From NCBI RefSeq assembly GCF_000003815.2, contig NC_049987.1:1202065-1266064 (forward strand): DNA of 64,000 bases. The letters are read 5' to 3'. Below are positions 14,055-38,238 of this stretch, in pieces. The notes under the pieces are model-generated. The model was not told the DNA's origin and ran no database searches. It was given only the letters and a program-made list of their open reading frames with translations. The translations under genes and the position numbers were made by a program. Positions within the stretch are counted from its first letter, which is position 1; each line of letters begins with the position of its first letter. This stretch comes from Branchiostoma floridae. Its lineage: Eukaryota; Chordata; Leptocardii; Amphioxiformes; Branchiostomatidae.

Positions 14055-14930
14055 GATTTACGGAATGGACCACTGAAGAAGGCATACTGGCGAAACCGGT
14101 CGGTGTAAAATGTGAATATTCAGCTCCGGCTATTTTACTGAGGGGTGACTGCTCATGGCGCCCTTTTACGTGACCATAGCACCCGAGCACAGCTAATTTA
14201 TAAATCCTAGGCCTGCTTTTAAGAAAAAATCCTCCGTTCGTGTTCTTCTATCGATCCGGGGCTTATCGGTTTGTGTTTCAAAAGATCGTAAGTCGTAACA
14301 AAACACCCAGCTCATCGAACAGCTTTCCACCTGATGTGAAAAACTTAATTCTACTCAAAGAATGACATTCGAGCGGAGTAAAGAGGGTATGAATATTGCC
14401 GCTGTTGTATCCTTACTATTTGTCGGTAATCAATGAAGGCTGGGAGAGACTTGCAATTGGACTTGTCTGCTATGGCAACGGCCGTACACAACAAAACACA
14501 ATTTAAAGCACACTGTTATACAAAAATTGCATTAAGAGTTCTCTCGTACCTCGAGCTCCCAGCGCCAATAAACTTCTTTCCCTCAAACATTTGTCTGGCT
14601 CTTGCAGAAAGGAAAATGCTATTAGCAGCACGTTATCCATCCAAATAGAATCAAAGATATATCCTTATTTTCTCATACCATTCATGGCATTTCTGCCTTT
14701 TTATACACACATTTTCGTTAGCTGCTGCACTGTTCGCCTGTTGTGTACACAGTACGGTCATGTACGAGCAAACAGAGCCGGTCTGCTCCCCTTTCTCGTG
14801 CCCTGACAGCGGCCAAACCAGCGGGCCGCCGTCCCAACACCCTCCTGCCTATCAGGGTGGTTCCCGCGGACGTGTCCGTCCTTTCAATGGGGCTGGCGGG
14901 TCGCAAATAGCACCTGCACAAACGTACGAA
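14055..14930 (+). repeat. Downstream copy of the duplicated promoter and first-exon segment
   Basis: Paralogous to 12215-13450. This copy carries the complete first exon (14760-14970) with the tyrosine-rich end, so it is the more likely main promoter of the gene. Confidence 0.65.
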
Positions 14931-17900
14931 GAGGTCGAGGTGAAACGCTACGCAACGTACACGTCTGCAGGTAAGAAAAGTTTTCGTGACTTGACTTTTT
15001 AGTACAACATGGGAATCTAGTTGTAAAATCAGCAGAAATTATCAGTAGAAATGGTGTACGATCACATACTGATACTTATGCAACATGGGAATTTATTTGT
15101 CAAATCAATTGAAAGTCTTCAACCGAAAATTGTGTCCTATCACCTTTGGATGCACAAACTTTTAATTATGCACCGGTAATGAGTCATCGCGGGAAATCTC
15201 CTCTCCCCCAAAATAGACTGATACCCTTCTCTGTATGTTACCTATATTTAAAATATTCATGATGTATTCATGCGCGACCCTCGTTCCCAAAAGTAGTACG
15301 GGTATAAAGTAGCGCCTTGCAGTACTTGCAAAGGCCGTAGTTATTCTTCCGTGCACAACAGCGAGGTGGAAACTGTGGTGAATGGTAGAGGAATACATCG
15401 GTGTTGATACTGTATAAGTTTGATTACGTTGCTTCTTCGGCCGGCGGGAATTTGCGCCTTGATACTGTTACCGGCACTTCACTTGTAGTACTAGTCTGCA
15501 GTTCCAAGACCTCCGCTGGGAGTCAAATCAAAGTGTCTATGACAAAAAAACGAGCCGGCAAATCTATGCTCATTTTCAGATAGTTAGTACATTGTACCCT
15601 GAACTTTAACACACTAGAATCTTGTAAATTGTTTCTGCACCCCGCTATAATTGGGAGGCGTCGAACCTCCTCACTTTGAGGTCCTCAACCATGTAAATCC
15701 CCATTGGCGAAAAACTGTGTACTGAGACCTTCAAAGACATTCGCCACAATTGCAACAATACAAAGTTTAGGCGATTGGTGTCCTACGAAGGCCAAGCAGA
15801 GACAAAACGTCACAAAACGAATAGTCCATGGGCAAGGACCCCAAATTTCGCATATCTGTACCCTCTGGGGTAGAAATTCTCGCGTTTTTATTTTATAGAA
15901 GGCCTGTGGTATATGTTTTGATGTGATATTCATTCTCGTATAGTAGCTTTATATTGGCTATCAGCCTTTAAACCTATCACCATGTAAATGATTCGGAAAT
16001 TTTGTGTCTTAAACAAGTGGGAGGGGCAAAAAATTAAACATAAAAAATAAATGATCTGGCTGGTAGAACCTGCTAAGAGGATAAAAAAATCAATTGCTTT
16101 TCGATATCATGATTCAACACAGAATTATGGTCACGTCTCTCATCAAAATTATATACTTTATTTTCCAAAATTCTGCATTTATTTACATTACCTATTGGGC
16201 CTTGCCTGATGATTAAGACTCACTGTGATTATCATTCCCTGCATATCAAACTTAAAATGATAGAAATCCGTCAATGAAATCAGACAATATCGTTGCTAAG
16301 GCCGTTGCTAAGGCTGTTGCTAAGGAGGTTTTAGATCATACCCCACCACAAACTAATACAGACAGAAGTCATTTTTCTGTGGTATTTTTGCTCTCATTAC
16401 GTCAGGAGAAGTAGATGGAATAGTTTTGAAATGTTTAACATTTAACAGATGCGAAAGTTTTTTTAACGCCGTTTCTTTCAGATTCATTAGAAAAATTGTT
16501 GTAACGTCGTTGCTAAGGGTTTACTCGGTCGTGTTTCATTGTATCGATCGGACGACGATTCGGCGGTAATCGCCCTAGCCTCGCTTATCATAATAACTTT
16601 ATTGCACAACAATTCTACAAGGTACAAAGTATGGCTTGTATGTGACAGGGACGGTTTTCAGGTGCAAAATACGCTCAACCATCTGTCGATCTTAAATATT
16701 GCATGTCTTGTATCCATACGCCCAAAGATCGTTCATAATGTGACAGGGGTATTAGCAAAGAACAGTAGAAAGTCAAGTTCCCTGACACGTAATTTTGCCC
16801 CTGTTATGCTATAAATCATGCATAACTGAAAAATATCTTAATTGATGGAAATGATAATTTGGGCTATCCGTGGGGGATATACGGATACCTGAAAAGGAAT
16901 TAACTTTATTTTGCACATTTCGTTTTATTTTTGCCCTTTTCTCAATTCTACGATAGGTGTTAGGCCTAAAATCTTCCGGGTTAATTACACCGCATTTTAG
17001 ACTTTACCTTTTGTCATGCCACTTGCTACAATGTAACTATGGTGACAGCTGTCTGGCAAAGGCCATTTTATATTCTTTTGGACTGTTTTTTTTTCAGTTA
17101 GCTATGTTGCATTGTTTTTGCAATTTTTTTTCCTGTTGCATGTGAAACGTGATAAAATGTCAACTGTTAAATGATTCAGTCTATTTTCCAGAAAAAGTTC
17201 AAGTCTGAATTTCTGTATAGTCAAAGCTTGCCTGGTATATTTCCGAATTTTACTGTATGACTTGTTTGAACATTTAAAGTTTAAAAAGCCATAGTATATG
17301 ATAAAAGTACTAGTACCTTTAATTGTCAGAAAAAAATGTAAGACCTTTCATGGTTGTTTAGCTTGTTAGAGATTCTAAATTTAGCTTACTTTTCGACTGT
17401 TGTGACTAGTTTATAGCAAAATGAGTGTTAAATATGTATGCATGTACCTATATAGGTATGTATGAGGTATAAGATATGATAATTTAGTGAAAAAAAATTA
17501 ACAAATCATTTGTTGTGTTGTTTGAAACTTTAAAGTAACACCCTGAATCAAAAGTAGAATCAAAGATTCTCCTGGTAGAATTCCAACCACTCCCAGGGGA
17601 ATTCCAGATTCCCCTTGGATTGATGTGAATTCCAATGTCCCCTAGTAGAATCCCAATTTCCCGTGGATTCCAGTCTCCGCTGTGACATGTATATTTGTTG
17701 TACACATCGAGTAAAAATAAAATAATCTTTCCAAACCGATGTTTTCGAACCATAAGGAGAAACAAAATATTAACTTCCTAATTAGTATTTCCTTCTTCAT
17801 CTATTCATCATTTCTTACCGTCTTGATTTGGTATGTTTACTAAACCTCAGTTATAATCTCTGCAGACCACATGTATCCGGGCGGAGCGAGCGGCCGCTCC

Positions 17901-20900
17901 AGCTGCAGCTGTCTGGCCGTCGGCATTGCCGTGCTGTTAAGCATCTCTGCAGTGGGACTCGCCCCTCTGACGTTCATCAACAAAAAGGTAAGCATTTGAC
18001 AGCCTTTTTTTCAAACAGTCTTTATATTGCTTCTGTTACATTTATAAAATACTACAAGTATCAAGTCAGAACATACTTCTGGGTGTAGGCATTCTCAAGT
18101 CGCTGGGTAGGCCTACTTGTAGTAAAGGCGGAATACATCGCATAACAAAAATTGAAACTGTAGTTGGAAACAGACCATCTTCTGCGAACAAAGGAACTCT
18201 CTCATATGCAAATTTGTAAGCCACGAACAAAACAGATCGGCGTCGGAGAGAAGCAGCAACACCTGTCTGCATTCCTGCAAAAGCCCAGGCGCCCGCCGAA
18301 CTCTGTTGTACGAGTTCCAGTCGTCACTTTAACAGAAACCTTACCTACAAGCCCAAGACCAACACCGCCCATGAACTCTCAGAACTTTAGAGCACAAATG
18401 ACTTGTAACCCACGTCAAATCGTGGTACCATCCGCTGTCTTGTATAACGCCCGCTACTTAGCGAACAAATTAGATGAATTTCATACGGTATTGCTTAATG
18501 AGAATGTTGAAGTAGCGGCTGTATCAGAAACATGGTTCCAACATGATGTCCCCGCTGACTCCTGGTCTCTTGATGGATACACTGTGTTCTGTAAATCGAG
18601 ACATGACAAACGGGGTGGTGGTGTTGCTTTGTATGTGAAGGTTAGTATAGCTACACGACAACTCACGACAATTGATGTACCTCCCGATGTTGAATGTATG
18701 TGGCTCATGTTAAGGCCCAAGCGCCTTCCTAGAAAGATCACATTTATTGTTACTTGATGTTGGTGTCATGATAATGGGTGATTTTAATCACATGGATGTG
18801 TCCGACCTATGTTCTTGGAATGATCTCCAGCAGATAGTTAACGTACCAACAAGATTAGACAGTACACTTGACCTGATTATAACTAATCTCACTGATTATT
18901 ACAACCCTCCCTCTGCAACTTCGCCTCTTGGTCGCGGTGATCGCAGCGTACGCTGTGCTGCTGACGCTGAAGCAACGGGTACCCCAGAACAAGACCATGA
19001 AACGACAAAAGCGATCGATGAAAGACTCCAGTATCTGGTCTTTTGGTCAGTGGGTGACTCAGCACCGGTGGGAGGAGGTGTCAGAAGAGCAGGGGACACA
19101 GGACAACACCACTGCCTTTTACAGGACATTACAACAGGCAATAGCAACAAACTTTCCACTTAAGTCTGTGCGGATACATGTTCATGTCAAACCTCTGATC
19201 TCACCCAGTATCAAGTCTTTGGTCAAGTCAACACAACGGGCTTTCAACCAAAAGAACTGGGAAAACTGGCGCAGATTCCGGAATGAGAAAATGAGGGAGA
19301 TCAAGTCCGCCAAAAAACAACTCAAGTGCGGTCTGGCACAAGGGACCAAATTAGGCCCAATAGTGTTCATCGCCCACACGTATAACTCAACAGACATTAT
19401 ACAATCCCCCACCCGGGCCTTCGTCGACGACCTAAACATCATTGAATCAAGACATTTTTCCCGAAACATCCCAGCGACAGAATGACCTCAATGAACTGTC
19501 TTCGTGGTCAGATAAGAACACCATGAAACTGAACCCTGGGAAATGTAAGGCTGTTCATGTCTGCTTCCTTCGCACACCACCTCCGCCACCCCCTCTCACC
19601 ATCCACGGACACGAGCTGGAAGTTGTACGTCTCGCCAAGTGCCTAGGAGTGACGTTCCAAGGAGACCTAGGGTGGGGCACCCACGTCCTGGACATAACGA
19701 AGAAAGGAGTTCAGAGACTGTACCATCTCTGCCGACTCCGACAGTTTAACCTACCCATGAAGACCTAGTGACTGTATACACTTGCTTCATCCGTCCCATT
19801 TTGGAATACGCTGCCCCTGTTTGGCATCCTGGCCTTACGAACACACAACACAAGAAGATAGAAAAGATTCAACGACAGGAAACTAGGATCATCCTAGGAC
19901 ATACCCTATCATAAGAGCAGTCTTGCAAAGCACTGAAGTTACAGAGCCTCTATGTGAGGAGGGAGGACTTGTGCCTGGAGTTTGGAAAGAAGCTGGCCAA
20001 GTCAAACCTGTACCACACTTGGCTACCAGGCACTAGAGGTGAAGTCACGGGGAGGGAAACAAGACAAAAAAAGAAAATCGACATCATATCAGCACGAACC
20101 AAACGATATGCCCAAAGTCCATTACCGTATATTGTTAAGCTCTTTAACAGCAGTTAATAACTTTTATTTGTCATCGATGTGTAATGATCATTGTATTTCA
20201 TCATGTTGTAAATTGGCAACAAATGTATATAAGTTGAATGATGCATTTTACCTGTAGTGTTCGTAAAACAACAACTTTGTAACTGTGAATCTCACAATTT
20301 AGCCTTTTCACTGCCAGGAGTTTACAATCAATAAACCAGTCTATTCTGCTGCATCTACACTATTTATCCAGTTTTGTATTCTGTCGTTCATCTGTAGGGA
20401 ATAACACAACTGTCCACTAAGGTTGACATATTGGAGCGCAATCAAGCCAACATGCGCCAACTGATCGCCATTGTTAACGACTTGAAGATTGAACAAGACA
20501 ACATAAACCATCTGCCCAGCACTGTTGAGGCATTGAAGCGCAACCAAGAGGCCTTGAAGAGTAACCAAGACGACATGCGCCAACTGTCCGCCGCTGTTGA
20601 CGCCTTGAAGCGTGACAAAGACGACATGCGCCAACTGTCTGCCGCTGTTGACGCCTTGAAGCGTGACCAAGACGACATGCGACAACTGTCCGCCACTGTT
20701 GACGCCTTGAACCGTGACCAGGACGATATGTCCACAACTGTTGACGCCTTGAAACGCGACCAAGACGACATTCGCCAACTGTCCACCACTGTTGACGCTT
20801 TGAAGCGTGACCAAGACGATGTGTCAACCACTGTTGACGCCTTGACGCGTGACCAAGACGACATTCGCCAACTGTCCGCCACAATTAACGCCTTGAAGGA

Positions 20901-23900
20901 CGACCAAGACGAAATTCGCCAATTGACGGCCACTGTTGACGCCTTGAAGCGTGACCAAGACGACATGCTCCAACCGTCCGCCACTGTTGACGCCTTGAAG
21001 CGTGACCAAGACGACATGCGCCAAATGTCCACCGCTGTAGACGACTTGAAGCACAACCAAGACATCATAACGCAACTGTCCACCTCTGTTGAGGCCTTGA
21101 AAAGCAACCAAGAGGCCTTGAAGCGTGACCAAGACGGCATGCGCCAACTATCCACCACCGTTGATGCCTTGGAGCGCGACCAAAACGACATGTACGCTAC
21201 TGTTAACGCCTTGGAGCGCGACCAAGGCGACATGTCCGCTACTGTTGACGCCTTGAAGCGCAACCAAGACGACATGAGCCAGCTGTCTATCACTGTTGAC
21301 GCCTTGAAGTGCGACCAAGACGACATTCGCCAACTGTCCGCCACAGTTAACGCCTTGAAGAACGACCAAGACGAAATTCGCCAACTGTCCGCCACCGTTG
21401 ACGCCTTGGAGCGCGACCAATTCGACATGTCTGTTACCGTTGATGCCTTGAAGCATGGCCAAGACGACATGCGACAACTGTACAACACTGTTGACGTCTT
21501 GAAGAGCAAGCAAGACAACATAACCCAACTGTCCGCCACTGTTGATGCCTTGAAGCGTGACCAAGACGACATGCGCCAACTGTCCACCACTGTTGACGCC
21601 TTGAAGAGTGACCAAGAAGACATGCGCCAACTGTCTACCGATGTTGACGCCCTGAAGCGGTACCAAAACGACATGTACGCTACTGTTGACGCCTTGGGGC
21701 GCGACCAAGACGACATATCCGCTACTGTTGACGCCTTGAAGCGTGACCAAGACGACATGCGCCAGCTGTCTATCACTGTTGACGCCTTGAAGCGTGACCT
21801 GGACAAGGAGAGGAACCGAACCGTCGCCTTGGAGCAGTGTCTTGACGAGGCGAGTAAGACGCCAGGTAAGTTGGGTTTCAGTTGTCTTTTGTGCTTTTTG
21901 GGATGATGTGTAGGGCAACATTATTGGTATAAAAAAGGTGGCAATGAAAAACCATTGTCTTGGGTACGTCTTGATGGTTTGTTTTTTATGTGTTAATATG
22001 TACGTTTGTTGTTGTTGGTATGTTTTAGTATTCGTGTTTTGTATCTTAACCTAGCTGTATATAAAGATAGTCTTAAGCAATAAATGCAGTTATATCGTTT
22101 CCAAATGTAAATGATACCCTAATTCCTATGGTTTATGTAGCTGCCAAATATCGCAAGTATGAAATGCCTTTGATTTACCACTGTGGTATTATAACACATT
22201 CTCATTGATAACACATTTGCACAATTAATTTCTTTCTATACCTTTCAGTTACAGAGTCATATGTTTGAGTGACCTATGTAGTGGGTTTATAAACTGTCCT
22301 CGTGAATTATACATGTTAGTCGTTTATTATAATAATTAGTGTTTAATTATGTAAAGTATCACTAAAGCTATCCAGCTACAAAACATTAAGACGATCCGTC
22401 AACACCTTCTTAAGTTATTCTCCTTCAAAGGGATTAGTAACTTGGAACGTGGAAAATATCCTGCAGAATTCCGGGGATTTTTTTTGCCAATTGGACGTAT
22501 ACTACACAGTTAGGCTAACCCCTGAGGCGTTGCCCAAAACAGCATTATAATCAAACTGACAATCATAATTCTTTTATGTAAAACTTTTCGAGATATTGTA
22601 TGTCAGAAGAAATCTGGACAATGATTTAAAATATTGCCATTGTTTGGGAAACAGTCGTTGCATTTTTTCAATACTCTGATTTCCTCCACCCATTAGGAGA
22701 CCGTGACTCCCGTAAGGACAGTGAACCATTCCTCTTGGTGGCTGATTTTGATGAAGAAACCATTTTTCAAGTAGACATCACTTCCGGATCAAAGGTCACA
22801 CTGCCACTGGTAGGTGTTGGACAACCCTACGCTCTGGACTACGACCCTCTCACTGACTACGTGTATTGGTCAGATCATCGGAACAAAGAAATCAAACGGG
22901 CTCGTCGTGATGGAAGTGATATGGAGACCACCACAGATACCGGCGGCAGTAAGTTGTAAATTACCATTATCACAAGCATGCATTTCAAAATGCCATATAC
23001 CTTATTTTCCGTCCGACGAATAACAAAGCCATATTCAGGCAAAATTTAAGGAAGCTGTGTCCGGATGATCTTATCAGATGTAAGTGAGGCTCTTTGTTCT
23101 TTTGTCTGTTTGCGAATCTTTAATAGAATACAATTCTAAAAAAGAATGATAAATGTTGAGAAAAAGGCGCAGGACACAGAGAATGAGCCAGATCCTTACA
23201 TCTACTTGGATATCATCTGTATATGGCTTTCAAAGACCGCAAATGTTTTAAATTGAAAATGACAATGAATTTAAACGCATATTCTTGCCCTGCAGCTGCA
23301 TGAGCTAAATGCATTGAGTTACATATAATTGTGCAATCAAAATTAACAGAAAGAAAGTATCTGTATGGCGGTCTCATCAAATCGGTCAGCTGCTGTCGAC
23401 TGTAAGTCTTTCCAGGCTCTCCCGTTAGCAGCTAGATGGTGGATCTGCTTTTCGGTGATCTGGCCTAGGCGCTGATGAATATACAGTAGATAGGTGGTAT
23501 AGTCTGCGTTTGTCGTGCGATGGTACGTTAAGAAAATAGCATAGATACTGGCAGCTTTATCATCGGGCATGCACAGGATGTGGCCCAGAAAGTTCAACTG
23601 CCTCTAGTGCACATGTTCGATCAACGGCTTTGTTTTAGTCAGTTCATAGATTCTGCTGCTAGAAACACGATCGATCCTTTTGATATTCAACATAATAAGA
23701 AAGCAAGACGTAGCAAAGGAGTTGATTCTTTTCTCCATATTTATATCTCAAGACTCGCACCTGAACATTACACATAAAACCTTAAACAGTTTCACTTTGG
23801 TAGCAATCGAGATGAGATCTCTGCTCCAAAACACGGCCCAGACCAATATTCTGCGCTTTAAAGGTCGAAACTAAATTATGCATTTTATGATTTTTTTTTG

Positions 23901-24429
23901 CTTTACATTTCTTTCTTTTTTATTTCCTCCGGGCTGTGGGAAGTGAAACCCCGACTTTATTGGGAAATCTGTATCAAGTATCAAGATTTTCCACCAGTAG
24001 AACAACCTTTGTAAAAATTCCGACATAAGTGTGCACTTTCAAGCATTTCCTGTTATTCGTACAGTGATCAGTTACACAGGAACGTCCGCACAATCTTTTC
24101 TGCAGATGCTTATGACCTGGCATTGGACCACGCTGAGGGGAATATCTACTGGTCTGTCTTCACCGCAAGGACTATCTCTGTAGCAAAGAAGGACGGATCG
24201 TCCGCCAGGACACTTCTGACGTCACCTGCCATCGGCTTGCCTTACGGATTGGTCCTGGACCCCAGGAAAGGGTGAGTAAAATGTATTTTGTCATAAACAA
24301 ACACAACTGTGGTTATTGTGTAAACGTTCGTTGGGAGAATTTTGTGAGTTATATCTACCCGGTCTGTGATGGCCCTTGACACGGGTTTTTCTGCCTTTAT
24401 TTATTTATTTATTTATATATATATATATA

Positions 24430-24472
<43 letters not shown>

Positions 24473-27361
24473 GATTGACCTATTTTGTCGCTTTTCGGTT
24501 TTGTGGTTATAACTGCTTTTTTATCTCCACTTTTCTTTCTAATGATGGGCGCTTCCATAGGGTTACTAAATTTGAATATTCAATGGAAATTATATAACGC
24601 GTCATTCGTAAACTTTGGGCATTTCATACCTGTGGCAGGTGGAAGTCGAGTAAGGATAAACCTCATGAAGCGTTGATTACTCTGTAAATCAGGCATTGTC
24701 ATACAATATTACATGAGCTTCCTTCCTTCTCTTGCGCTGTATAATGTTAATGGATTTAATTTCGCAGTAGCAGGGAAATGACTGTTCGCGGTAGCACCAT
24801 GCACTGTAGTCTCTAATTGCAAGATCGCGCTGATTTTAATTTGCCGGCGGTGAAGTGGCAACCGCGAAAATCGCGAACATAAAACCACCTCGAACATTTC
24901 GGCATTTATGGTATATAACTTAGATGTGAAATTAGATAGTTTTAGCTACGAATTTACGTGCATAACTGACGAGATGATACACAATAAAACAGCAAATTTC
25001 CAAACATTTCGCATTGATTCAATAGTTCTGTTTATTGGGCTCTTTTCACAGACTCATGTATTGGACCGACTATTCTAAAAGCGGTATTTACCGAGCTGAG
25101 ATGGACGGCAGTGGCCAAACCACCATCACCGCGGATCTGCGTAATCCCGACGCCATTACAATAGACTTCAATGGTGAGGACACAGGCTCTAGAAATATCA
25201 ATGATTAGTCAATTGAGAGCAAAAAGTTTCGAAATTTTGTTTGATTATGACACATAAATATTACCCGAATCAAAGTTTTGTGTCTATGTCACTGGTTGTT
25301 TTTTTATCTTTCCAATACCAGTCCGTGTACGGCTTTGCGTATGTGCATTTTTTTCTGACCCCTTTAGGGCCTTATGTAAAACTCTAACTGCATAGTAATG
25401 ATCAGTATATTTGTTCATCCCAATTAGAGAATAGGCTGTACTACCGCGATCAACAGTACGGCATCTACAGCTCAGACCTGCTGGGCAACGATATCCGACG
25501 AATGATGTATGAAGACGGGAAGTGGGTTGTTGATATTGCAGTTGATGAGGACTTCGTCTACTGGTCGTCTATCTGGCAGGAGTCATCATCATCGCCCTGG
25601 CAGGGAAAAATCGGAAAGTGAGGAAATCCCCTCTATCTAAAAAACAGTTTGTAGTAAGAAATCTGTAATTACTCGGTGAAATTCTGTATAACAATCTATA
25701 TAATATGTATGTATCTCGTGTGTAGATATCTGGTAGTACTGTGGGCCGATGTACTGATATATGCATGAAATAAATAGTTAAAAATGAGTATGAAATACAT
25801 ATCCCCAAATACGTGAATGTACATTTGTATGCAAATCAAGATCTGTATACGAACATATATCTAATGTTTTGAAGTCCTATTTTTACAGTCTTACTATGTA
25901 TATGCATTTGTCTAAAGACACGTTTTCTTTTACACTTCCAGGCCACATGAAATAAATACTGAAATGACATATAAGTATAAAATACATGCATATATGCAAA
26001 TCAGCATTTGTATAAGAATATATGTATCTATAGTTTTGAATTCCTATCTTTACACCCTCAAGACATGTGTATACACAAAAGACATAACACGTTTCGTTCC
26101 ACACGTCCAGGCTGTCCAAGTCTGACCTGACAAAGACTGTGCTGTTGAATGGCCTGTATCCGGCGGGCATCTTCCTGTCCACGGCAGCGCCTCCTGGCGT
26201 AACCAGTGGTGAGTACAGTTCCTGACAGATTCACCACTACCAGTACCTGAATCCTGTACGACAGGTTCAGGTCATTAAACTGTTTAAACATGTTGTTTTT
26301 GATTATATGATACACATTTTTGCGTACGCATGCATAAATTACGAAGTTAGACCAGGGGTTAAGATTTTTTTTTCATTTCAAGACACGAACTAGATTTTCA
26401 CGACTCATACCTTCGATAAACGATATCAGCGTTTTTTTCAGTGAAGTGATATAGAAAATTGTATTAGTTATGCAAATAAGGCCCGTATTTTCATAACTTG
26501 ACTCCATTGCTTATCTACTTTATCCAATAGCAAAAGTTAGTCAAAGAATGGAATTTGTAAATGTGACACTGGTTTGTATGATCGACATCAAATAATGTTT
26601 ACCTTCACGTCACTTCGTTTATTGTTTATTCAAAAGATTTCCATTAGTGAGTACAATTCAGACTGTATCACTAGTCTTCCTGTAGTCATGAGTCAAACAC
26701 GTTACATAATACAGAATTAACACAGTACATTGAAACTATTTACACCTTAACATCACTTAAACCTAACCTACAACCTAAAGGTACACTTATACCTAAAGCA
26801 AATACTACCGCTATACCTTATTCTAAAAATAAAAGGAATGAGTTGAGAGGTCAAGTAGCTGAGAGGTCAGTGTCAAAAATATCGTAACTTTTCTCTTTCT
26901 CAGTTTCTCAGTGTGACAAGTTTGAGAGTCCTGTAACCTGTTACGAATACAGTTTATTTTCAAATCTCCTCATTAATTCTGCTAAAAATGTTGATTTGCA
27001 TGTTTTCATGTCATTATGTAAGTCATTAGCCTAATATACATACCAAAAATCATAACGATCCGCCACTACGTTCTAGAGTTATTACACAGTTTAGAACAAA
27101 ATAGACACCTGTAATTTCAAAAAAGTCCTGGGGGGGGGGGCAAACTTACAGCAGTTACTCTCTGACCCGAAATGTTTTGTCCTGGCAAACCTCGTATTAC
27201 TGTTAAAAGTTGCAATTGCTTCAAGACCCAATACCATTACGTATTCAGTACGTTTTAAGCACGTTATAGGATTATTGCTCTTGTTAAAATCATGTCAAAA
27301 ACGCATACTTTCACATCGCATCCCTGCTTATTCTGTTCCCGTTTATCCAGGACGTCCATAG
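14760..27361 (+). CDS. Type II membrane protein: coiled-coil stalk plus YWTD (LDLR-type) beta-propeller, 879 residues
   Basis: Exons: 14760-14970, 17866-17987, 20398-21865, 22697-22948, 24106-24271, 25052-25173, 25428-25617, 26111-26208 and 27351-27361. All junctions are GT-AG and all phases match (2640 nt). Residues 1-70 form a cytoplasmic tail with YEEV and YATY motifs. The helix CLAVGIAVLLSISAVGLAPL lies at about residues 85-104, with Arg before it and no signal peptide, hence type II. Residues 112-600 are a tandem coiled coil. Residues 601-876 are an LDL-receptor-type propeller with blade motifs VYWSDHRNKEIKRA, IYWSVFTARTISVA, MYWTDYSKSGIYRA, LYYRDQQYGIYSS and VYWSS. About five blades are recognisable. 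Such propellers bind extracellular protein ligands; the ligand here is unknown. The last exon adds only RP and a stop, the least certain part. Introns host a LINE (18164-20335) and other repeats. The first three exons are paralogous to those of the gene at 31439. Confidence 0.85.
16288..16330. repeat. Short 12-bp tandem repeat
   Basis: Three to four copies of GTTGCTAAGGCY in a row. A further GTTGCTAAGG stands alone at about 16509. Minor intronic repeat. Confidence 0.6.
17550..17680. repeat. Degenerate minisatellite rich in GAATTCC and TCCCC
   Basis: About six diverged copies of a 20-24 bp motif close to GGTAGAATTCCAATTCCCC, intronic, just upstream of the membrane exon of the YWTD-propeller gene. 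No function is implied. Confidence 0.55.
18164..20335 (+). mobile_element. CR1/L2-type LINE, internally deleted and frameshifted
   Basis: Endonuclease part at 18440-18900 (VAAVSETWFQ, GYTVFCKSRHDKRGGGVALY, then a frameshift and GDFNHMD). Reverse-transcriptase part from 19325: LAQGTKLGPIVF, FVDDLN (the catalytic Y/FxDD motif), LNPGKCK, then ECLGVTF-like and RLYHLCRL blocks, and ending YIVKLFNSS with a stop near 20157. The fingers region between the endonuclease and QGTKLGP is missing, and at least three frame changes are needed, so the copy is dead. A 3' untranslated stretch continues to about 20335, ending 60 bp before the coiled-coil exon. It lies in sense orientation in the intron of the YWTD-propeller gene. 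Confidence 0.85.
20398..21865 (+). repeat. Coiled-coil exon built of about 27 tandem units
   Basis: This single exon of the YWTD-propeller gene encodes 489 residues of near-repeats with consensus VDALKRDQDDMRQLSAT (17 residues). Shorter 14-residue units (VDALERDQNDMYAT) and two 24-residue units (VEALKRNQEALKSNQ plus DDMRQLSAA) also occur. All length changes are multiples of three bases, so the frame is kept under selection. Hydrophobic spacing is 3-4-3-3-4 in the 17-mers and plain heptad in the 14-mers. The last part, ALKRDLDKERN then VALEQCLDEASK, matches the end of the single short coiled-coil exon at 35096-35258. Acceptor TGTAG at 20397 (phase 0), donor CCAG/GTAAGT at 21866 (phase 1). Confidence 0.9.
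23343..23600 (-). mobile_element. LINE/retroelement coding fragment
   Basis: Minus-strand open frame with NFLGHILCMPDDKAASIYAI and, further on, LAANGRAWKDL and AADRFDE. This matches the pattern of the C-terminal segment of endonuclease-reverse transcriptase polyproteins (LGH.LRMP... followed by LA.DR..W). No start and no RT core is present. It lies antisense in the intron between propeller exons 22697-22948 and 24106-24271. Confidence 0.55.
24396..24471. repeat. TTTA/TA microsatellite
   Basis: TTTA units pass into TA units, another ATTTATTT, and a final TA run; intronic. Confidence 0.95.
26618..26880 (-). mobile_element. Probable LINE 3' tail
   Basis: Begins with TTTATTGTTTATTC. It then shows a layout resembling 300-390 (CACTAGTCTTCCTGTAGT here, AACTAATCTTCCAGGAGT there; then TACATAATAC). 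This suggests the 3' untranslated end of a LINE of the same broad family, read on the minus strand. No coding part is recognisable. Intronic, before the last tiny exon of the YWTD-propeller gene. Confidence 0.4.
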
Positions 27362-28610: not shown

Positions 28611-28666
28611 GCTAAATTATATCTTTACTAATGCTCTATAATGGGTTATGGGTAAATGGCATTTGC

Positions 28667-28849: not shown

Positions 28850-29039
28850 CCACTCAAGGGTTTCACTTGTGGATGATGATTCACCTGAGCAATGAAGCAA
28901 TACAACATATTTCAGTACACTGTAAGTCAATCCTTGGTAACTCTTTTGAAGGGGGTGGTAGAGCATTCTTAGTGAATATTTTGATGGCTATGTAGCTTTT
29001 GTGGGTAGAATTAATCAATTGTGTAATTCATTATCATGA

Positions 29040-29256
29040 CGTAGTCTAAAGAAGGCAGACAGACTGAACATAGACTTTCATTTATAGTTTCAACAGTATT
29101 ATATCAATCTTCGTAAAAAAATTAGGATAATGTACAGCAGATATTGACTGACAAAGTCACGAAAGCAACTTTTCATCAGACCAAAAGTGATTAAATGGCA
29201 CATCAAAATTTACGCCTGGGGTCCAAATGGACCCCACTCGGGTGTTTGAGGGTTAA
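29040..29256. mobile_element. piggyBac-like element end fragment
   Basis: Ends in CACTCGGGTGTTTGAGGG followed by TTAA at 29253-29256. Bases about 29075-29252 resemble 44110-44263 (shared CAATCTTC, ATATTG.CTGACAAAGTCACG and the same terminus). The left end is not found, so this is a truncated copy. Confidence 0.6.
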
Positions 29257-31340
29257 AGGCGTATTGGGCGCCGAGGAAGAATAAAATTTACATTTGCCTT
29301 GCTGATTGAGGGTCTTCTTGCCTTTTCAACCCGAGCAAGTTTAATTTACCGTTAATCATTACCGGTCCGCTCTAAAGCGTTATCGATATATTGTAATTGA
29401 AGCGTTATTAGTCGTTTTAATTCTACGTTAAGCGTTATTTGTTATCCCGAATTCACCGTTAAGTGTTACCAAGAAATTCTTCGTAACCCGAAATAGTCAA
29501 TATATCAAAAGCCAGATTAAAGCCCTGAAAATGCAGGAAATGGCGTTTCAAAGGGTCCTGATTTCCCTTCGTTGGGAAATATGTTGCTGAAGCGTCGCTC
29601 TGGAAAAAATTCTCTCACAGAGATTTTAGTGTCAAACGTTGTTTGTTTTCAGCCAAAATGTGTCCCACGAATGTGGGAAATAACGTTTTAGATGGTCAAG
29701 ATTTCTCAGGCCCTTCCTTGCGATGGATTGCGCTCGCGACGACATTGCGAAAATTCGGTTGTCTCCCATAGAAACCTTAGTCTCTAATAGATTGCATACA
29801 TGGAAACAACAAGAACAAGAAAATTCTTCAATTGCTACATGAGTAAGAGATTCACCAAACGAAACGAACATGCACTCAGTCTTTATCTGTCCATTGGAAA
29901 CACAGAAAAGAATATCACACTAACAGTAGTAAGCTATGTATAAATATACCAATAAATAGATGATTAAAAGTTGATCAACGGAATCTGAATTGAGGGTTCA
30001 AAGCCCTTTAATGTTCGATGCTCATAGTTTGCAACATAAATAAGTGAAAAACAAGTATTATTAAAACATTTTAAAATTCCCTGCTTGATTACAAATACGG
30101 ATTGTAACCATTAAGAGATATGATTGAATCTAAGGCTAAATTAACATTTCTTGCATAGTAGCGATTAAATGTCAGACTTCTTGGCGTAATGTTATGAGAT
30201 AGATTCATTCCAATGCGTATCATGTTGAAGACAAGAATGGGTGAATGGTTTGTGAACGATGCAGTTACAAAAAAGTAAAGGAATTGGCGAAGAGATATTT
30301 TCTATTGCGACATACAAGAATGTACAATTTTCTCATGATCAGGAAAATAATTCGCCCAGAGACAACATTCCTTGTTTTCTATCTACCGTATATAATACAA
30401 TTACACAAAATAATGCAACAGCGTTTTGAAACTTGTCATCTACAAAGGCACGCACACATGATCTAAAACGAACCTTCTTGGCTCCCAGGAGTATTTTCTA
30501 CGAACTTACGACAGTTAATCACAGGTGTTAGCCAGATGAGATATTTCTGTACGAGTCAACGAAAACAGTGCATTATACATATAGATAAAATATATTTAAA
30601 TACTGGACAGCATTGTTAGCATCATTCAAATGACATTAAGAATCTTATTTATATCTGAATTATGCAACTAGGCTGAAAAATTTCTAGGGAAAATTCTTCA
30701 TAACAGAATCAGCATGTTTTGACAGGAACATCCAATCGTTTCTTGTGTTCACTTTTATTTAGAGACATCTGTTGGTTGACATCTGTTCTAAAATACTACC
30801 ACCTCGGAACTAACGACTCGGTTGACTCATACTGACAAAAAAGGCTAGTATGGTCGGAATTGTCAACAATGTAATGTTTCGCCACAAAATCTGTTTTATT
30901 TGTGCGCACTACGTCGAGAATTATTGGATGTTCCGTCTTTTCGTCATTTCTCATTTGTTTTTTGGGGGGGTCTCAAAAAAACAAACAAGTATCTTAACTT
31001 AAAAATGTCAATCTGAGGACATATCCATGACTCAGACACGTGACCTCTGTGCGGAGCCTGGCTATATTAGTGTATCTATATTCACCGGACGAAAGCAGCA
31101 TTACGCACATGTGGTTAAGCACGATAGAAACCCCGAATTTAGGGTAGAATGCGCTGTGAGCTGGTTTCACTTCGGATGTCAGGGATCAAACACTAGCACT
31201 AGTACCATGTACTCAGGGCTGAAGCGATCTGATAGGCTTGTGGTATAAAAAACGAATTAGGACAAAATAAATGAGTCTGGCACGTGTAGAAAATTAAAAT
31301 ATCCTTCGTATCGCTTAGCTTTCCATATAAGGACATAGAT
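29257..31340. other. Intergenic region between the two propeller genes, no gene seen
   Basis: About 2 kb of AT-rich sequence with short scattered open frames and no splice-flanked exon or repeat I can name. The promoter of the NHL-propeller gene must lie in its right part. A frame beginning at 31027 (73 codons) has no supporting features. Confidence 0.5.
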
Positions 31341-31438
31341 ATCGGTGTTTCTTCAGACTAATCCTGATGTGTTCTGTCATATTCATATTTCGTCTGCCGA
31401 GAGCGTTTATTCCAACAATACTTGTCTGCACAGAAGAA

Positions 31439-34400
31439 ATGTACGAACAAGCTCAGCCAGTACGATGCCCGATTTCGGGGGTCAGAATCGGGCAGACCAG
31501 AGTCTCGTCGTCCAAAACCACCCCTCGTGGTCAGCACCGACCTAGCAAAGACAACAACACTAAGATGTGCAGCCAAAATACAGGGTCATCATCAAGTTGG
31601 TACGAAGAAGCCGAGGCTGTGTACCATACTATAAATGATCAGGATGTTCCACCGCCTTTACCGAACCCTCGCTCGGCACAGCACACCAGGCCAGAGGTGA
31701 AGCCACCCCAGGCTTCGATTGTATCCGAAAACAGTGATGACAACGTGCGCTGCGAAACACACACATCTACAGGTACCTTTTTTTAATACGTTTTGGATTA
31801 AATGATTTTGGGGGCAGGACAGTCTGCCATTCTTGTCGCTAACTTTCTTGTCGGAAAATGCCAAAAGGCTTACGCTAGAGACACAGAATTAAATGATGTT
31901 TCCTAAAAAAAATAGTTGGAACCAATTTTCCAAAATTTCGAAAGTTAAAATTTGCTCATTATGTAGCAGAAAATGCCATACCCTGTACAGTCAAACATGC
32001 CCAAGACGACCACCCGGGGGGGGGCGGGAAAAAGCGGTCGATTTGGACAGGTGGTCGCTCAGAAGAGTATCGACTCAAAACATGCCCGATGCAAAGTATA
32101 AATGGTTTCCGTTGTGTTTAATGGCAAATAGCAAGCACACTGCACGCACGCAAAGAAGCGAGGTCTTTAAATTAATGTCAAATACCGAACACGCACACTG
32201 TTAACTGTAAATTTAACTCAAAGCTTTTATCGAGCTTTGTAAATATTCGATACAGTGTTTTAAAGCTCAATATTTGTACACTAACATTTTAGACAGCAAC
32301 GGAACTTTGAAGCTGCCAGTTACCACACAAGCCTTTATCGTTTTATGCGTCGCTGTGTTCTTGATCGCCGTATCTGAAATAACTACGCTGAACTTTTTTG
32401 AATTCGATGCCCGGTACGTCCCGATAGCGTACTTACCCACGGGAGAATGTACAATACAGTTGGACAAAAGCACTCACACAGATCTTTCTTAAAAAGGTAT
32501 GAGCTACACAGATCTTTCTTAAAAAGGTATGAGGCTATATGCGTTTCAGCATTCGTTCACTATATAATGATATAGATTTAAAAAGAAACTTCTGTAACAA
32601 CTAAATTCGGATTTTCTTACAACGAAATTTCCTCCCATATTGCAGTAGACCCACCCATTGACCGCCGCCATCTTTATTCAAAACATAACATCGTAATGGC
32701 AGTCAAAATCCGACGCAATCTGGCCGATTTCGGCACAAAATCGCGCTAGTTATCATCAAAAATCAATGAAAACCTCAATTTTGAAAATGATGCGGTCGTT
32801 ATGGGTCCTAATTTGGGCCGGTCGCGGTCGCGTTGGTCAGGTGGTCGTTGAGAAAAGGTCGCTTAATGCTTACGTAAATGGGAAAAAATCGGGACCGAGA
32901 AAAAGCGGTCGAAATGGCCAGGTGGTCGCTGAGAAGAGGTGGTCGCTCGGGCAGGTTTGAACTGTATGAGGTTTTCCCGCTGATGGATAAATGAAATAAT
33001 CTAGTTAATCTTTCACTATTAGGTATTTATAAATAACTCGCCTAAATACAAATTGGCGGACCATGTTACCAAATCAAGTATATTCAAATAGCTTGATTTT
33101 CCTAAGAATTGTTCAAATTGTGTTTTCAGTGTTTTTTCGATGTATTTTGCGATAAATTTTTAAGTCTAGTTGGCAGACACATTTTGCCGGTGTTGTTGCT
33201 TTTTTGTCAGTAATAGTCGCAGCATTACTTATGCAGTTATGTACACTTTTAGTTAAATTAAATGCTGCATACCTTGAAATTTTCTTGGAATACCTTATAA
33301 CAATGATTCCGGCCAAAATAATCACATAGTTGACGTCATAATTCTATCAAATATCTTACAATCTTCATTTTTTATGTACATCATTATACGAAAAATCGGT
33401 GGTCATATAAAAAGTCATTTAAGATTTTCCTATGTGGGTCTCAAAAGCCCGAAAGTGTAAAGGATACCCCGTGGCCGAATTAATAACAATATTGTTGTCC
33501 ATATTTATCATTTTTAGGGAAAAATTTGGGAAAAATTATCCAATAAGGTTTTTTTTCCCTGGCTAAATTGGCATTTTCACCTTCCTTTATTTTCTTAGTA
33601 ATATATTAAAAAAGAGTTGAGTTATAACCTATGTTAATAGCTTGGCAAAAAAGAATTCTTGGTATGATTTTTTTTCACCATTAATTTTTATTGCCCATTT
33701 TATTATTTTCAAGATAAAATACAGCACTTTGGTCCAAACCACTGAAGAAAAAATGATTTTCATATACATAATGATAAAACCTACAAACGTGCGTACGCAC
33801 ATCTTAATATCTATTAATTGTTTAAAGTTTTTAAAAATGGTTTCCTGATTAGACAAAGAGCAATAATTTTCTAGTAAATATTGATAATCGGTAGAAATTA
33901 TTTTGTGCGAGCGTACGTTTCTAGCTTTTATATTCATGTACATGGAATACATAGTTTTATTGGTACGTACCAAAGTGCTATATTTTCTCCTAGGAAAAAA
34001 ATTACATAAAATGGGCAAAAACGTTAATGACGTCATCCATATTGTTCAAAAATTATATTCAGAATTATTTCGTGTTTAGCTTATTAGCTTACAATGTGTG
34101 TTATAAACCATCATTTCTTAATTTTATTAATAAGAAGACAACAGAAATTCAGAATGTTAAGTTAGCCAGGAAGAAATCAGTAAGAACCATTCATATCGTA
34201 TAGTTAACCATTCAATGGGATGTGAATAAGTAAACTTTTTCACTTTGTCTCAGTAAAAGTTGGCAGTCTATTAATTAAAGAAATGGGGTTAATTTGGATT
34301 TCCGTTTTGAACAGATCGCATTTGTAAAGATGGACCAGACGCCCACCTTGCACGCTGTAGGTTCTTCCGAATCCCCATGTACATTGCCATGGCGTTTGTG

Positions 34401-37400
34401 GCTATCATGATTGTGGTTGGATTTTTGTCTGTTGATGATTGCAAATACTCGCGTAAGTAAAAAAAAAATATTTATGTATTTTCTTTCCTCTTTCTCTCGC
34501 CCCCATCTCTCCCCTGTATTTCGACATGCGTACTTGAATGTTTGTGGTGATCATAAACCAACTATTGCAACTACGTATCTCTAGATTGCATTTACAACAA
34601 CTGTAGTAAATGCTCTGTCGATAAAACATTTGGTTTTGTTCGTAATATTCTAGGCATCCATTGGTTATTATAGAGTTCATTTTTAAGTCACGCAGTGGGT
34701 TGTTGCTGACAAAGTTTTTAAAAAAGTTCTATTATTTGAAATTGTTGCTATTAAAGTTTTTTTATTCTTTGGCATAGTTTCTATTTTATATCCACTGTTA
34801 AATTTTTCTATTTTAAAACGACTGAAAATGACGCTTGCAGATCACACGATGTCAGTATATAATCTAATTAATATCAGGCTAAAATGATAAACATTATAAT
34901 ATATACAAATACATCCGCTTAGATAAGGACTAAAGCATCAACATTCTGAATATTTTATTAAAAATCAAAATCAAAATTGAATTATCATTTGCAATGTTAA
35001 CTTGCACAATTGGGACACCAATACATGTCTTTTAAATGTTTCTGTACATATCGTTTGTCGTTCTCAAAAAAAGTTGGAAAATCTTACAATTTCAGGCATT
35101 GACAAAACTGTCATCTGCTGTTGAAGTCTTGCAAGGCGACCTGCACAACGCAATAAAGCAGCTTACAGCTTTCGAGACTTTGAAGCGCCAGTTGGACATC
35201 GACGGAAGCAGAATCACATTCTTAGAGGAGCGTCTTCAAGAGATGACCAAGAAGTTGGGTAAGCTGACAATCAGATTTTTCTCCTTTTGGTAAAGAGATC
35301 ATTTAGAGTAGGTGTCATGCATTGTCTTTGAATTTTAGCTATTATCTTGTCGGTATGGTTGTATGGTAGGGGTTTGTGCCGGTACGGTGGTTTTCTTGTT
35401 GGACCGGTCAAGAAAAAACGGACGTGAAAAAAATCAGTGGACCTAATCTTTGACCGATTAAAAATGAACAATTATGTTGGCAGCGTTTCACGCGTTTTGG
35501 GGTTTACTGGTCAAAGAGAAAGGCAAGAGCGAACCAAGTCTCTACAGTAAAACTTGATCAAAGTTAGTAAAACTTGATCAAAGTTAGTGTTGTTTACATC
35601 AGAATAGAATTAAAAACGCAAGTGGAAGTCACGTAAACGAATCTTAGGAGCGAAATGGACCATTGTTTTGTGTAGCGCCCATTCTTAAGTTTTAAGAGAC
35701 AATCAGGTTCAGGTCCGGACCTGGACCCGCTCTCCTGAACCTGGACCGTACTTGGACCTAAATTTTCATTTTCGGTACTGACCCTATTGTATTATGTTTT
35801 AATATGCCACGGTCTGTAGTTGTATTGTATTGAATTATAGGGTAGTATTGTGACGTACACAAATGCCTGCAGACATAATGAACACCCATCGACCAGTGGG
35901 TGCCTTTGTCACTGTAATCTATTGTCATTAAACGATTTTTGTAAAAAATTATTTTAAAACTGCGTAATGCAACGATCGCAATGTAATGTTGGAATTATTC
36001 TTGCAGACAATTATGAAGGAGACAAGAACATTACATGTGATATTCAAAAGGTAAGATTCAATGTACGTTGCCTTTGCCAGTAAGAGGTTATATCTTCGGC
36101 TGTTTGCTTGTTAGGGCTACGTGTGTCTTTGGGACTAAAGAAATGTGCATTTTTAAAACATTTGGTAGGTCGGTAGGTCTCAATGACAAAGATAGATTTG
36201 ATAATGGACATCGTAGCAGCAATACATCTTCAGCGTTCAATAATATGCCTGCCAAACATGTGACATGTGTTAGTGATAGACATAGTTGTCAGAACGACAA
36301 CGAAATGAATATTACAAAAAATTAAAGATTTATAAGAAAATGCCTTTTAATGGGACGGTCGTACCTTTTATTTCTATGTCACTTTAATCAGCGTAAAACT
36401 CTGTATTGATATGTTCCCAGGACAAGCCTACCAGTGACAAAACGTCCACGACGGACACATCAAAAACTGAAAGCTCGCAGGGTATTTTATTTTTTTTATA
36501 TTTATATACATATTTTTATTTTCAAGTTTAATATTTATAGATGATATTTTTTATTTATATTAAATATGAATGCTAATAGGAAATATAGTACATTGGAAAA
36601 AATGATTGGTAAATGATTGTCTTAAATATTTAACTTTTTTCCCTTTTATACAAAACAAAGACACCCCCTATGAAAACAGTTGCTATGTCGTGTATAATAC
36701 AAATGCTGGTTGAATAGCGTTCTTTGCTGTGGATATTGATCCGTTACATGTTCTTGCATTACAAAAGTTAGAGTTGGTTTTCAGTTATATGCATTTTACA
36801 TAAGGACCTTTGTTTCATTATTGTCTTGGAACTACAAATATTTTGCGAGAATATAAAAAAAAGAGATCTCCACCAAAATATGTCTTAAAACATACGCCAA
36901 ATTAATACACAAGGTATAATAAACGTGGCCAGGGACCTTGAGTTCAAACAAATGAATGAATACAAAGCATGATATACATACCAAGCAATATATTTTTTAT
37001 CTTTTGCATCTTTTTTTCGGATTTTTTTCTTGCAACTGTTGTTTACATTTTTTTTAAAATTTAACTTACTGTATATAATTTACTCGTTTTGCATGATCTA
37101 CTGTATGCTTGAATTTTAAACTAACAAAAATTAATTGCCCGCATCGATGTCATCCATGCAATCAAATAGACATGGCTTAGCAAGTTCCATTGCCAGGCAA
37201 CTACGATTCTTTACTCGAGTCACATGGCCTTGTTTACGTACTCGTTGTAATTTATACGGTTACACCACTACTGACGAAGGTAGTATGTGCGACCAAAAAT
37301 TAGAGGTAAACAGTATGTTCGCGTTAAATTACATTTATCATACAATCCAACAAGAACAAGTCCATGTTCACTTTTTGTAATTCCCTACCACAGAAATCAC

Positions 37401-38238
37401 TGGAGAAAACGTTGAATCGAAGATAAGCTTTGGTGGGCGTGGATCAGAACAAGGCAAGTTCAACGGTAACTACGGAGTGGCTGTTTCTGCTGACAATGAG
37501 ATCTTCGTGACTGACTACCACAACAAACGGGTCCAGGTCTTCGGCATGAATGGGATGTTTCTCCGCTTGTTCCCAACAAAAATGCTGCTTGAACACAAAC
37601 ACACTCTCATATACCCTTACGGTGTTGCTGTTGACACATTTGGCAATGTTTGGGTTACAGGGGTTGATAATGATAAAGACCGTCCGCAAGCCTATATAAT
37701 AAAGTACAGCAGTAAAGGGGGTTTGCCACTCACTATTTTTAACAAACCAACAGAGCACATGGCACCTACGATCGCCATTGACAAGCGAAAGAACAAAATC
37801 GTTGTGGTTCTCTCGAATGAGATTTTAATGTTTCTACCAAATGGCTCACTTAGTCAGAGTTTTGTAATGACGCATTATGAGGTTACAGGTTTATATCCTT
37901 TAACATCCGACGAGAATGGTAACGTCATTATTGCAGACTACGACAGTGTCCATGTGTACAGTGATTCTGGATATCACAAATTCTCATTTAAAGGGGAAGG
38001 AAAAGACACATGTCAAATGCTGTGGGTCAGTGGGATTTGCGTGGACACATCGGGTAACATCATTGTGGCTAATACTGGGAATAACCGAATAGACATGTTC
38101 ACAAAGGAGGGTGAATTTGTTCGCACTATCGTCCGTATGACCGGTCCTGGTGCGTTAGTAATGGGACCAGACGGGCAGTTGGTAGTGATTAGCACTAATG
38201 CTGTAACTGTATTCCAACCAAAAGTGCTATTTTTGTAA
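31439..38238 (+). CDS. Type II membrane protein: coiled-coil stalk plus NHL beta-propeller, about 532 residues
   Basis: Exons: 31439-31772, 34315-34452, a proposed 14-nt microexon 34841-34854, 35096-35258, 36007-36050, 36421-36481 and 37394-38238; all phases agree if the microexon is used. Residues 1-111 are a cytoplasmic tail (MYEQAQPVRCPISG start, WYEEAEAVYHTI motif, Pro-rich PPPLPNP). The helix PMYIAMAFVAIMIVVGFL is at about 132-149. Residues 163-216 are coiled coil (LSSAVEVLQGDL to FLEERLQEMTKKLG), followed by a Ser/Thr/Lys linker. Residues 252-532 form an NHL-type propeller with repeats such as YGVAVSADNEIFVTDY...RVQVF, YGVAVDTFGNVWVTG, DENGNVIIADYDSVHVY and ICVDTSGNIIVANTG...IDMF. There is no RING or B-box, so it is not a TRIM protein. 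The propeller would face outside the cell and probably binds protein or RNA-like ligands; the ligand is unknown. An upstream in-frame ATG at 31367 exists, but MYEQ matches the paralogue. The stop is TAA at 38236. Confidence 0.82.
31986..32966. mobile_element. Mariner-like non-autonomous element ends, copy 2
   Basis: The left end TACAGTCAAACATGCCC then AAGACGACCACC matches the reverse complement of the right end (TACAGTTCAAACCTGCCC then GAGCGACCACC). Both start with TA, consistent with a TA target site and a CAGT terminus as in Tc1/mariner relatives. Subterminal GAAAAAGCGGTCGA and AGGTGGTCGCT motifs occur in direct orientation at both ends. The interior contains the alternative membrane exon at 32293, so either an exon was enclosed or two separate fragments flank it. 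Confidence 0.55.
32293..32492 (+). CDS. Alternative membrane-helix exon of the NHL-propeller gene, ends in a stop
   Basis: Acceptor ATTTTAG at 32292, phase 1, joins exon 1 (31772) to give DSNGTLKLPV then the hydrophobic run AFIVLCVAVFLIAVSEI, clearly a membrane helix, followed by about 30 more residues and TAA at 32490. Use of this exon would give a roughly 177-residue tail-plus-helix protein without stalk or propeller. A donor-like AAAAAG/GTATGA lies after the stop, and that stretch (ACACAGATCTTTCTTAAAAA with GGTATGAG) is duplicated at 32476-32530. It may be a poison or decoy exon, or a relic. Confidence 0.5.
33640..34035. mobile_element. Imperfect foldback element of about 390 bp
   Basis: The left arm has TTGCCCATTTTAT, then AGCACTTTGGT, then AAACGTGCGTACGCAC. 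The right arm repeats these in reverse complement and in mirrored order (GTGCGAGCGTACGTTT, ACCAAAGTGCTA, ATAAAATGGGCAA). The arms are about 150 bp around a spacer of about 100 bp. Both strands show long AT-rich open frames, which are by-products. It lies in the intron between the alternative membrane exons of the NHL-propeller gene. Confidence 0.65.
34841..34854 (+). other. Proposed 14-nt microexon of the NHL-propeller gene
   Basis: The membrane exon ends in phase 1 at 34452 and the coiled-coil exon needs phase 0 at 35096. Direct joining gives a stop. The 14 bases here follow CTTGCAG, precede GTATAT, and restore the frame, adding HHTMS. I found no better candidate in the interval, but a segment this small cannot be proved by eye. 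Confidence 0.35.

Follow-up and report, generated by a model that had tools for sequence, protein, structure and literature searches.

Do two neighbouring genes that end in unrelated beta-propellers begin with the same membrane-anchored stalk, and how general is such an arrangement? The question is raised by genes A (14760-27361) and B (31439-38238) of Branchiostoma floridae, which lie on one strand of a 64,000-nt stretch of NC_049987.1 (the window; coordinates given without a contig are positions within it). A sequence-only reading had described them as tandem paralogs in a modular system, in which a common stalk is joined to alternative propellers through phase-1 introns. From the analysis reported here, A and B appear to be better viewed as members, both with unusual heads, of a very large family of receptors built on a stalk cassette; very probably they belong to a large multigene family in which one N-terminal cassette is joined through a phase-1 intron to varied heads, making type II recognition receptors. 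As read from the sequence, the cassette consists of a short tail exon ending in phase 1, an exon for the membrane helix that runs from phase 1 to phase 0, and a coiled-coil exon running from phase 0 to phase 1; the head sets found with it are C-type lectin (the commonest in the sample described below), collagen plus lectin, fibrinogen, collagen plus fibrinogen, YWTD, and NHL.

Exon structure of the two genes

Gene A could be rebuilt as nine exons with GT/AG borders, encoding 879 residues and a stop with no internal stops, in the order MYEQ tail, membrane helix, 490-residue coil, and YWTD propeller. By a simple consensus score, its donors are among the best 4% and its acceptors among the best 9% of all GT and AG sites in the window. 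Its putative last exon is uncertain; if this is left out, a stop follows within a few codons past 26208. The exon phases are kept in P1, a YWTD paralog of gene A about 0.6 Mb away (C9:1821305-1835374, loci L009/L010; C5, C9, C10, and the like are contig labels).

14760-14970, + strand: gene A exon 1, cytoplasmic tail (MYEQ...TYEEVEVKRYATYTSA), ending in phase 1; same length and phase in P1
17866-17987, + strand: gene A exon 2, encoding the membrane helix (19 residues with a mean hydropathy of 2.3), phase 1 to 0
20398-21865, + strand: gene A exon 3, coiled coil, phase 0 to 1; 27 repeat heads, mostly at 17- or 14-residue spacing
22697-22948, + strand: gene A exon 4, first YWTD propeller exon, phase-1 start (Pfam)
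24106-24271, + strand: gene A exon 5, YWTD propeller (Pfam)
25052-25173, + strand: gene A exon 6, YWTD propeller (Pfam)
25428-25617, + strand: gene A exon 7, YWTD propeller (Pfam)
26111-26208, + strand: gene A exon 8, end of the YWTD propeller (Pfam)
27351-27361, + strand: gene A putative last exon, uncertain; strong acceptor, 11 nt only

Gene B also opens with a MYEQ exon ending in phase 1, and the rebuilt sequences agree in this respect with what had been claimed for both genes. Its last four exons make in-frame joins; the acceptor of its coil exon scores weakly. The order of tail, helix, and coil exons proposed for both genes stands for gene A, with phases of 1 to 0 and 0 to 1 in an open model, but in gene B the membrane and coil exons do not join in frame.

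31439-31772, + strand: gene B exon 1, tail (MYEQ...WYEEAEAVYHTI...PPPLP), ending in phase 1
34315-34452, + strand: gene B membrane exon (DR...LARCRFFRIP...), exceeding that of the paralog B2 (described below) by a net one base; frame clash with the coil exon
35096-35258, + strand: gene B coil exon, with homology to the two ends of the gene A coil exon; phase 0 to 1
36007-36050, + strand: gene B linker exon, phase 1 to 0
36421-36481, + strand: gene B linker exon, phase 0 to 1
37394-38238, + strand: gene B NHL propeller exon, stop included, phase-1 start

Relatedness of the stalks

The ends of the two coil exons had been said to match in pattern, and they do: 12 of the last 28 residues are identical, up to the same phase-1 junction, where both genes have the motif KR.LD..R...LE..L.E at the donor. 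The A/B coil-end score was reached by none of 50,000 shuffles, whether or not these kept the hydrophobic pattern, so that the similarity goes beyond coiled-coil composition. Over the last 32 coil residues, the offset anchored at the junction ranked first of 459, with a score of 48 against 16 for the runner-up. The starts of the coil exons (GITQLSTKVDIL and ALTKLSSAVEVL) match as well, outscoring nearly all shuffles. In the tails, 10 of the 20 residues after the Met are shared, a score reached by none of 100,000 shuffles, and a tail exon of MYEQ/MYQQ type ending in phase 1 is found in A, B, B2, P1, and three C10 tails. Pairwise BLAST gave no match between the membrane exons of A and B. On these alignments, the stalks of A and B are evidently related.

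The stalk family in the genome

Genome searches covered the 513-Mb assembly. A query of 34 residues from the coil end gave 293 candidates at first look, of which 150 scored matches are listed, and figures derived from these are lower bounds. The coil-end motif occurs at at least 150 loci (150 of 150 scored candidates, E ≤ 6.3e-5), distributed over 17 contigs in 54 clusters; C10 holds 81 of the 150 listed. Searches with the gene B coil first picked up itself and B2, then family coil loci on C6, C10, C16, C12, and C7, and 13 of its 26 matches at E < 0.01 (self and B2 counted) coincide with listed coil-end loci. Paralogs of the first exons of gene A led to C10 loci at which the stalk is followed by fibrinogen, by collagen and fibrinogen, or by a C-type lectin. 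The main stalk cluster, at about 19.3-23.9 Mb of C10, is a large lectin/fibrinogen receptor region with 74 of the 150 listed coil ends.

Head figures come from a sample of 20 of the 150 listed coil loci, chosen to spread over contigs (one is from C10) and with heads assigned by eye, and from genome searches for YWTD, NHL, and fibrinogen. The first 2.7 kb downstream of the 20 coils contained a lectin at 17 loci (two with collagen), YWTD at one, and nothing at two; read further, one of the latter has YWTD and the other a lectin. The tabulation of C-terminal domains that had been proposed as a check, carried out at these loci, therefore gives 18 of 20 with a C-type lectin (2 of them with collagen) and 2 with YWTD. 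Pfam confirms Lectin_C, Fibrinogen_C, and Collagen in one C10 example each, and a 90-aa YWTD fragment at locus L029 is 88% identical to a gene A exon. The idea of a modular stalk joined through phase-1 introns to alternative propellers was thus right as to modularity, given at least 150 coil ends, but not as to the propellers: by the sampled-locus counts and the proximity counts below, these are minority heads on a mainly lectin chassis.

All 17 lectin exons located by script among 23 stretches are entered in phase 1, a phase-1 donor was found at 8 of 9 coil ends examined individually (genes A and B included), and all eight family membrane exons examined are followed by GT in phase 0, seven of the eight being preceded by AG. 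The membrane exon runs from phase 1 to phase 0 and in frame with the coil in gene A and in B2, but not in the window gene B as assembled.

Gene B and its paralog B2

B2 (C9:1478216-1485090) is on the same contig as gene B, about 245 kb further on, and is 83% identical to gene B in the coil and 81% in the head. It is open over six exons (528 aa), with every junction in phase; its membrane exon has 137 nt, compared to 138 nt in the window gene B, the unmatched gap lying within a short T-run. Because the B2 exon is of this length and in phase throughout, the window gene B carries a net one-base difference. The ratio of nonsynonymous to synonymous change (dN/dS) between B and B2 is 0.29 for the coil, 0.40 for the head, and 0.62 for the tail; by this measure, the coil and head are under constraint. 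With B2 open and coil and head constrained, gene B probably represents a real architecture, the window copy either carrying a one-base assembly error or having been broken recently. Judged from B2, the evidence points to the exon at 34315 as the true gene B membrane exon. Against a family profile, the B2 membrane exon is the best of the 239 open reading frames (ORFs) of its locus, although weakly (E 0.0039); that of the window gene B ranks third in the window (E 0.63).

Each of the one- or two-step splice alternatives found for gene B uses at least one poor splice site. A helix-like exon at 32293-32413 combined with an acceptor at 35074, two cryptic donors, and extra small exons were scored, and none was convincing. 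The 32293-32413 stretch, within gene B intron 1, is an ORF that reads as a further hydrophobic, helix-like segment and has possible splice sites; it may be an alternative membrane exon or a chance occurrence. The original observation holds for gene A itself and, through B2, for the architecture of gene B.

Propeller heads and their distance from stalks

That the heads come from different families is borne out by Pfam, which assigns Ldl_recept_b (1.1e-19) to gene A and NHL (1.4e-13) to gene B. The nearest solved chains to the gene A head are LRP2, LRP4, and LRP6. The gene B head is closest to TRIM2/3/71 and Thin; structure prediction, another of the checks proposed, gave a model of the NHL exon (mean predicted local distance difference test score, pLDDT, 80.7) that matches the TRIM3 and TRIM2 NHL structures with template modeling (TM) scores of 0.73-0.77. 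Ahead of the domain, the ORF contains no ATG in either the NHL exon or the first YWTD exon. The gene A head is closest to other YWTD genes, on C9, C11, and C5, and gene B is nearest to B2, so that the two are not simple tandem duplicates of each other.

As a control, all 150 listed coil positions were compared with head positions, counting coils upstream on the same strand versus those on the wrong side or opposite strand; these counts too are lower bounds. A coil end lies within 5 kb upstream on the same strand of 13 of the 56 YWTD matches (at 0.5-2.9 kb), and none is on the wrong side or opposite strand at either 5 or 10 kb. Of 173 fibrinogen matches, 150 were listed: 15 of the 34 on C10 have a coil end within 5 kb upstream (wrong side or strand, none), and among the matches listed from outside C10, 0 of 116 are near one. 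No NHL match (0/138) falls in the 5 kb that follow any of the 150 listed coil ends; once the B and B2 coils are added, two do (B and B2 themselves), with none on the wrong side or strand. Widening the distance to 20 kb brings in one wrong-side and one opposite-strand match.

Proposed architecture and role

The tails are short and tyrosine-bearing (motifs YEEV and YEEAEAVYHTI), and proline-rich in B. A single hydrophobic helix follows the tail, and no signal peptide was seen by eye, making a type II orientation the natural reading; the proteins are therefore predicted to be type II membrane receptors. The gene A coil has a hydrophobic periodicity of 3.43, with spacings of 17 (16 of 26) and 14 (7 of 26) residues, and may have grown by repeats of these lengths. 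The P1 coil exon is 51 nt longer than that of gene A, or one 17-residue unit, and stalk length accordingly looks adjustable by gain or loss of units.

Such a coil would oligomerize the chains and lift a cluster of heads off the cell surface, with a reach estimated by arithmetic at about 70 nm for gene A and 8 nm for gene B. Clustered heads could bind glycans or proteins with avidity, while the tyrosine-bearing tails might link them to endocytosis or signalling. Head diversity may be owed to exon shuffling in phase 1 and subsequent local duplication. A role in surface recognition is likely, and innate immunity is the best guess as to its setting; the lectin and fibrinogen heads point to recognition of glycans or microbes. 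It is also imaginable, if very improbable, that the phase-1 splice position lets neighbouring genes swap heads in RNA as well as in evolution, giving a combinatorial and individually variable repertoire in an animal without antibodies. The gene A stalk, for example, might be spliced past its own head to the first linker exon or the NHL exon of gene B, both of which start in phase 1.

Alternative explanations

It could be argued that the likeness of the A and B stalks is only that of coiled coils in general, between unrelated genes. Coils do share composition, and the two membrane exons lack a pairwise match; but the junction-anchored alignment ranks above shuffles preserving the hydrophobic pattern, the tails match too, the gene B coil retrieves the family genome-wide, and the B2 membrane exon tops its locus against the family profile, if weakly, so that this explanation is largely refuted and barely credible. 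Hardly more attractive, and very improbable in our view, is that stalk exons and head exons come from separate, adjoining genes, their joint protein being a gene-model artefact. False fusion does occur in lancelet annotation, a lectin/fn2 case being documented in PMC4967905; it would not account for the way in which 13 YWTD and 15 fibrinogen matches agree in stalk order and strand (controls of zero at 5 kb), for phase-1 entry of every located lectin exon, for B2 being open through all six exons, or for the gene A coil exon remaining open up to its phase-1 donor. A better case, which we rate as a real possibility somewhat short of even, can be made for the window gene B being a recently broken copy (a true frameshift allele or a pseudogene), leaving B2 alone functional: it has a net extra base in the T-run, and no good alternative splice path was found. 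Its coil and head are nonetheless otherwise open and diverging under constraint, and one-base differences in homopolymers are also frequent among assembly errors. As to function, the family might serve cell adhesion or tissue organization, in the manner of colmedins or teneurins, rather than immune recognition; gliomedin and the teneurins, which are type II proteins, mediate cell contacts (PMC7848082 and PMC5851990). Their heads are of propeller type. We consider this unlikely, although far from negligible: the numbers, clustering, and lectin/fibrinogen heads of the family resemble those of expanded recognition repertoires, and in Huang et al. (PMC4284660) CTL and FBG are among the lancelet receptor genes said to evolve like its Toll-like receptors.

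Several observations weigh against the preferred reading of A and B as members of one stalk-cassette receptor family. The window gene B offers no in-frame join from its membrane exon (34315-34452) to the coil exon at 35096. P1 looks decayed, as its head exons 4 and 8 contain stops and its exon 5 can be aligned only partly, and the A/P1 tails have a dN/dS of 1.24 over few sites, which indicates no constraint. The collagen-fibrinogen gene at C10:20306010 looks decayed too: its membrane exon is not preceded by AG, and a clear donor is missing where its coil ends. In a crude scan for donors, a phase-1 site turned up at only 11 of the 16 coil ends located. The L029 YWTD fragment matched no Pfam family at 1e-3. 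When the distance is extended to 10 kb, 19 C10 fibrinogen matches have a coil on the correct side but 6 have one on the wrong side and 1 on the opposite strand. No listed coil end lies within 5 kb of 43 of 56 YWTD, 19 of 34 C10 fibrinogen, all 116 other listed fibrinogen, and 136 of 138 NHL matches; most matches to these heads are thus not shown to be on a stalk. Topology and oligomeric state are predictions from hydropathy, charge, and repeat pattern, and no canonical immunoreceptor tyrosine-based activation motif (ITAM) or strict inhibitory motif (ITIM) was found by eye in the tails.

Comparison with known systems

Type II C-type lectin receptors (the CD209/CLEC family) have a short tail, one membrane helix, a coiled-coil neck, and a C-terminal recognition head. 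The stalk family shares this layout, with a lectin at 18 of 20 sampled loci, but A and B carry YWTD and NHL heads instead, and its stalk exons are common to several unrelated head classes: Lectin_C is absent from the Pfam matches of gene A and B2, while Pfam does find it in one C10 relative built on the same stalk. The gene A propeller is like those of LRP5/6, LRP2, and the LDL receptor, from which it differs in being a single propeller on an N-terminal membrane anchor; the Pfam families shown for its 879-aa model (25 of 26) include neither LDLa nor EGF modules. The NHL head of gene B is like that of TRIM-NHL proteins, but is predicted to be extracellular, and the full B2 protein has Pfam matches to NHL and SGL only, with no RING, B-box, filamin, EGF, or YD shell.

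The olfactomedin head is itself a propeller fold. It is found with collagen in the colmedins (gliomedin, UNC-122), which are type II membrane proteins (PMC7848082). They are not known to share the stalk sequence, and in the present family the propellers are YWTD or NHL, collagen being combined with a lectin or a fibrinogen head. Among vertebrate proteins, the teneurins are single-pass, of type II, and bear an extracellular six-bladed NHL propeller (PMC5851990), an arrangement predicted for gene B also, though on a coiled coil rather than the teneurin EGF rod and YD shell. In view of these two groups, the suggestion that such an architecture is not standard in vertebrates was too strong; each architectural element is already known, from type II coiled-coil lectins, colmedins, and teneurins. 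A description of the stalk cassette was not found in the open-licence amphioxus/Branchiostoma literature, searched by titles and abstract openings; subscription papers fall mostly outside this, and it is no proof of absence.

Lancelets have been reported to shuffle exons faster than other animals, with a 1-1 phase bias and with transposon fragments enriched in the shuffled regions (Huang et al., 2014, PMC4284660). The phase-1 junction and domain recombination described here are of the same kind, but that work, so far as its available text shows, gives genome-wide rates and not a particular cassette.

Other features of the window

Gene A has a diverged second copy of its first exon:

13305-13449, + strand: second copy of gene A exon 1 (MSEQ..., no tyrosine), intact frame, phase-1 GT

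It is part of a duplicated block (12842-13445 / 14326-14906) comprising the upstream region and first exon, with the copy about 1.45 kb upstream. The two exon copies show no clear constraint (proportions of synonymous and nonsynonymous differences, pS 0.24 and pN 0.19), and equivalent second copies upstream of tails at three other loci are decayed. An alternative first exon or promoter was considered for 13305-13449; with a mediocre donor, and with the copies at those three loci broken, it is treated as a remnant. A possible third tail copy at 59762-59860 was set aside as low-complexity similarity by eye.

Intron 1 of gene A contains a dispersed repeat (15264-15480; 37 of 42 genome matches in one search, at 91-95% identity), copies of which are often arrayed about 1 kb apart; intron 2 contains, at 18164-20250, broken retrotransposon-like ORFs with the look, by eye, of an endonuclease and reverse transcriptase. 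Elsewhere, exons resembling an acyl/4-coumarate-CoA ligase (AMP-binding) by eye lie at 1947-8650 (- strand), including a run of N at about 2480-3370, and a 466-residue low-complexity ORF (41634-43034, - strand), rich in Gly, Ser, and Asp with STEEVEVVSGG repeats, matched no Pfam family. Further tandem arrays are found at about 48938-49660, 49957-50697, and 52677-53414.

Significance

Fast domain shuffling in lancelets has been challenged as annotation error (Banyai and Patthy, PMC4967905), and this paper and PMC4284660 disagree accordingly, gene-prediction error being set against an extreme rate of new architectures; the stalk family makes the dispute testable. One stalk whose coil end occurs in at least 150 places, with at least four head families joined at the same intron phase, is a clean test system. 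It also suggests that a basal chordate may build a diverse surface recognition repertoire on one chassis, propellers on coiled coils included.

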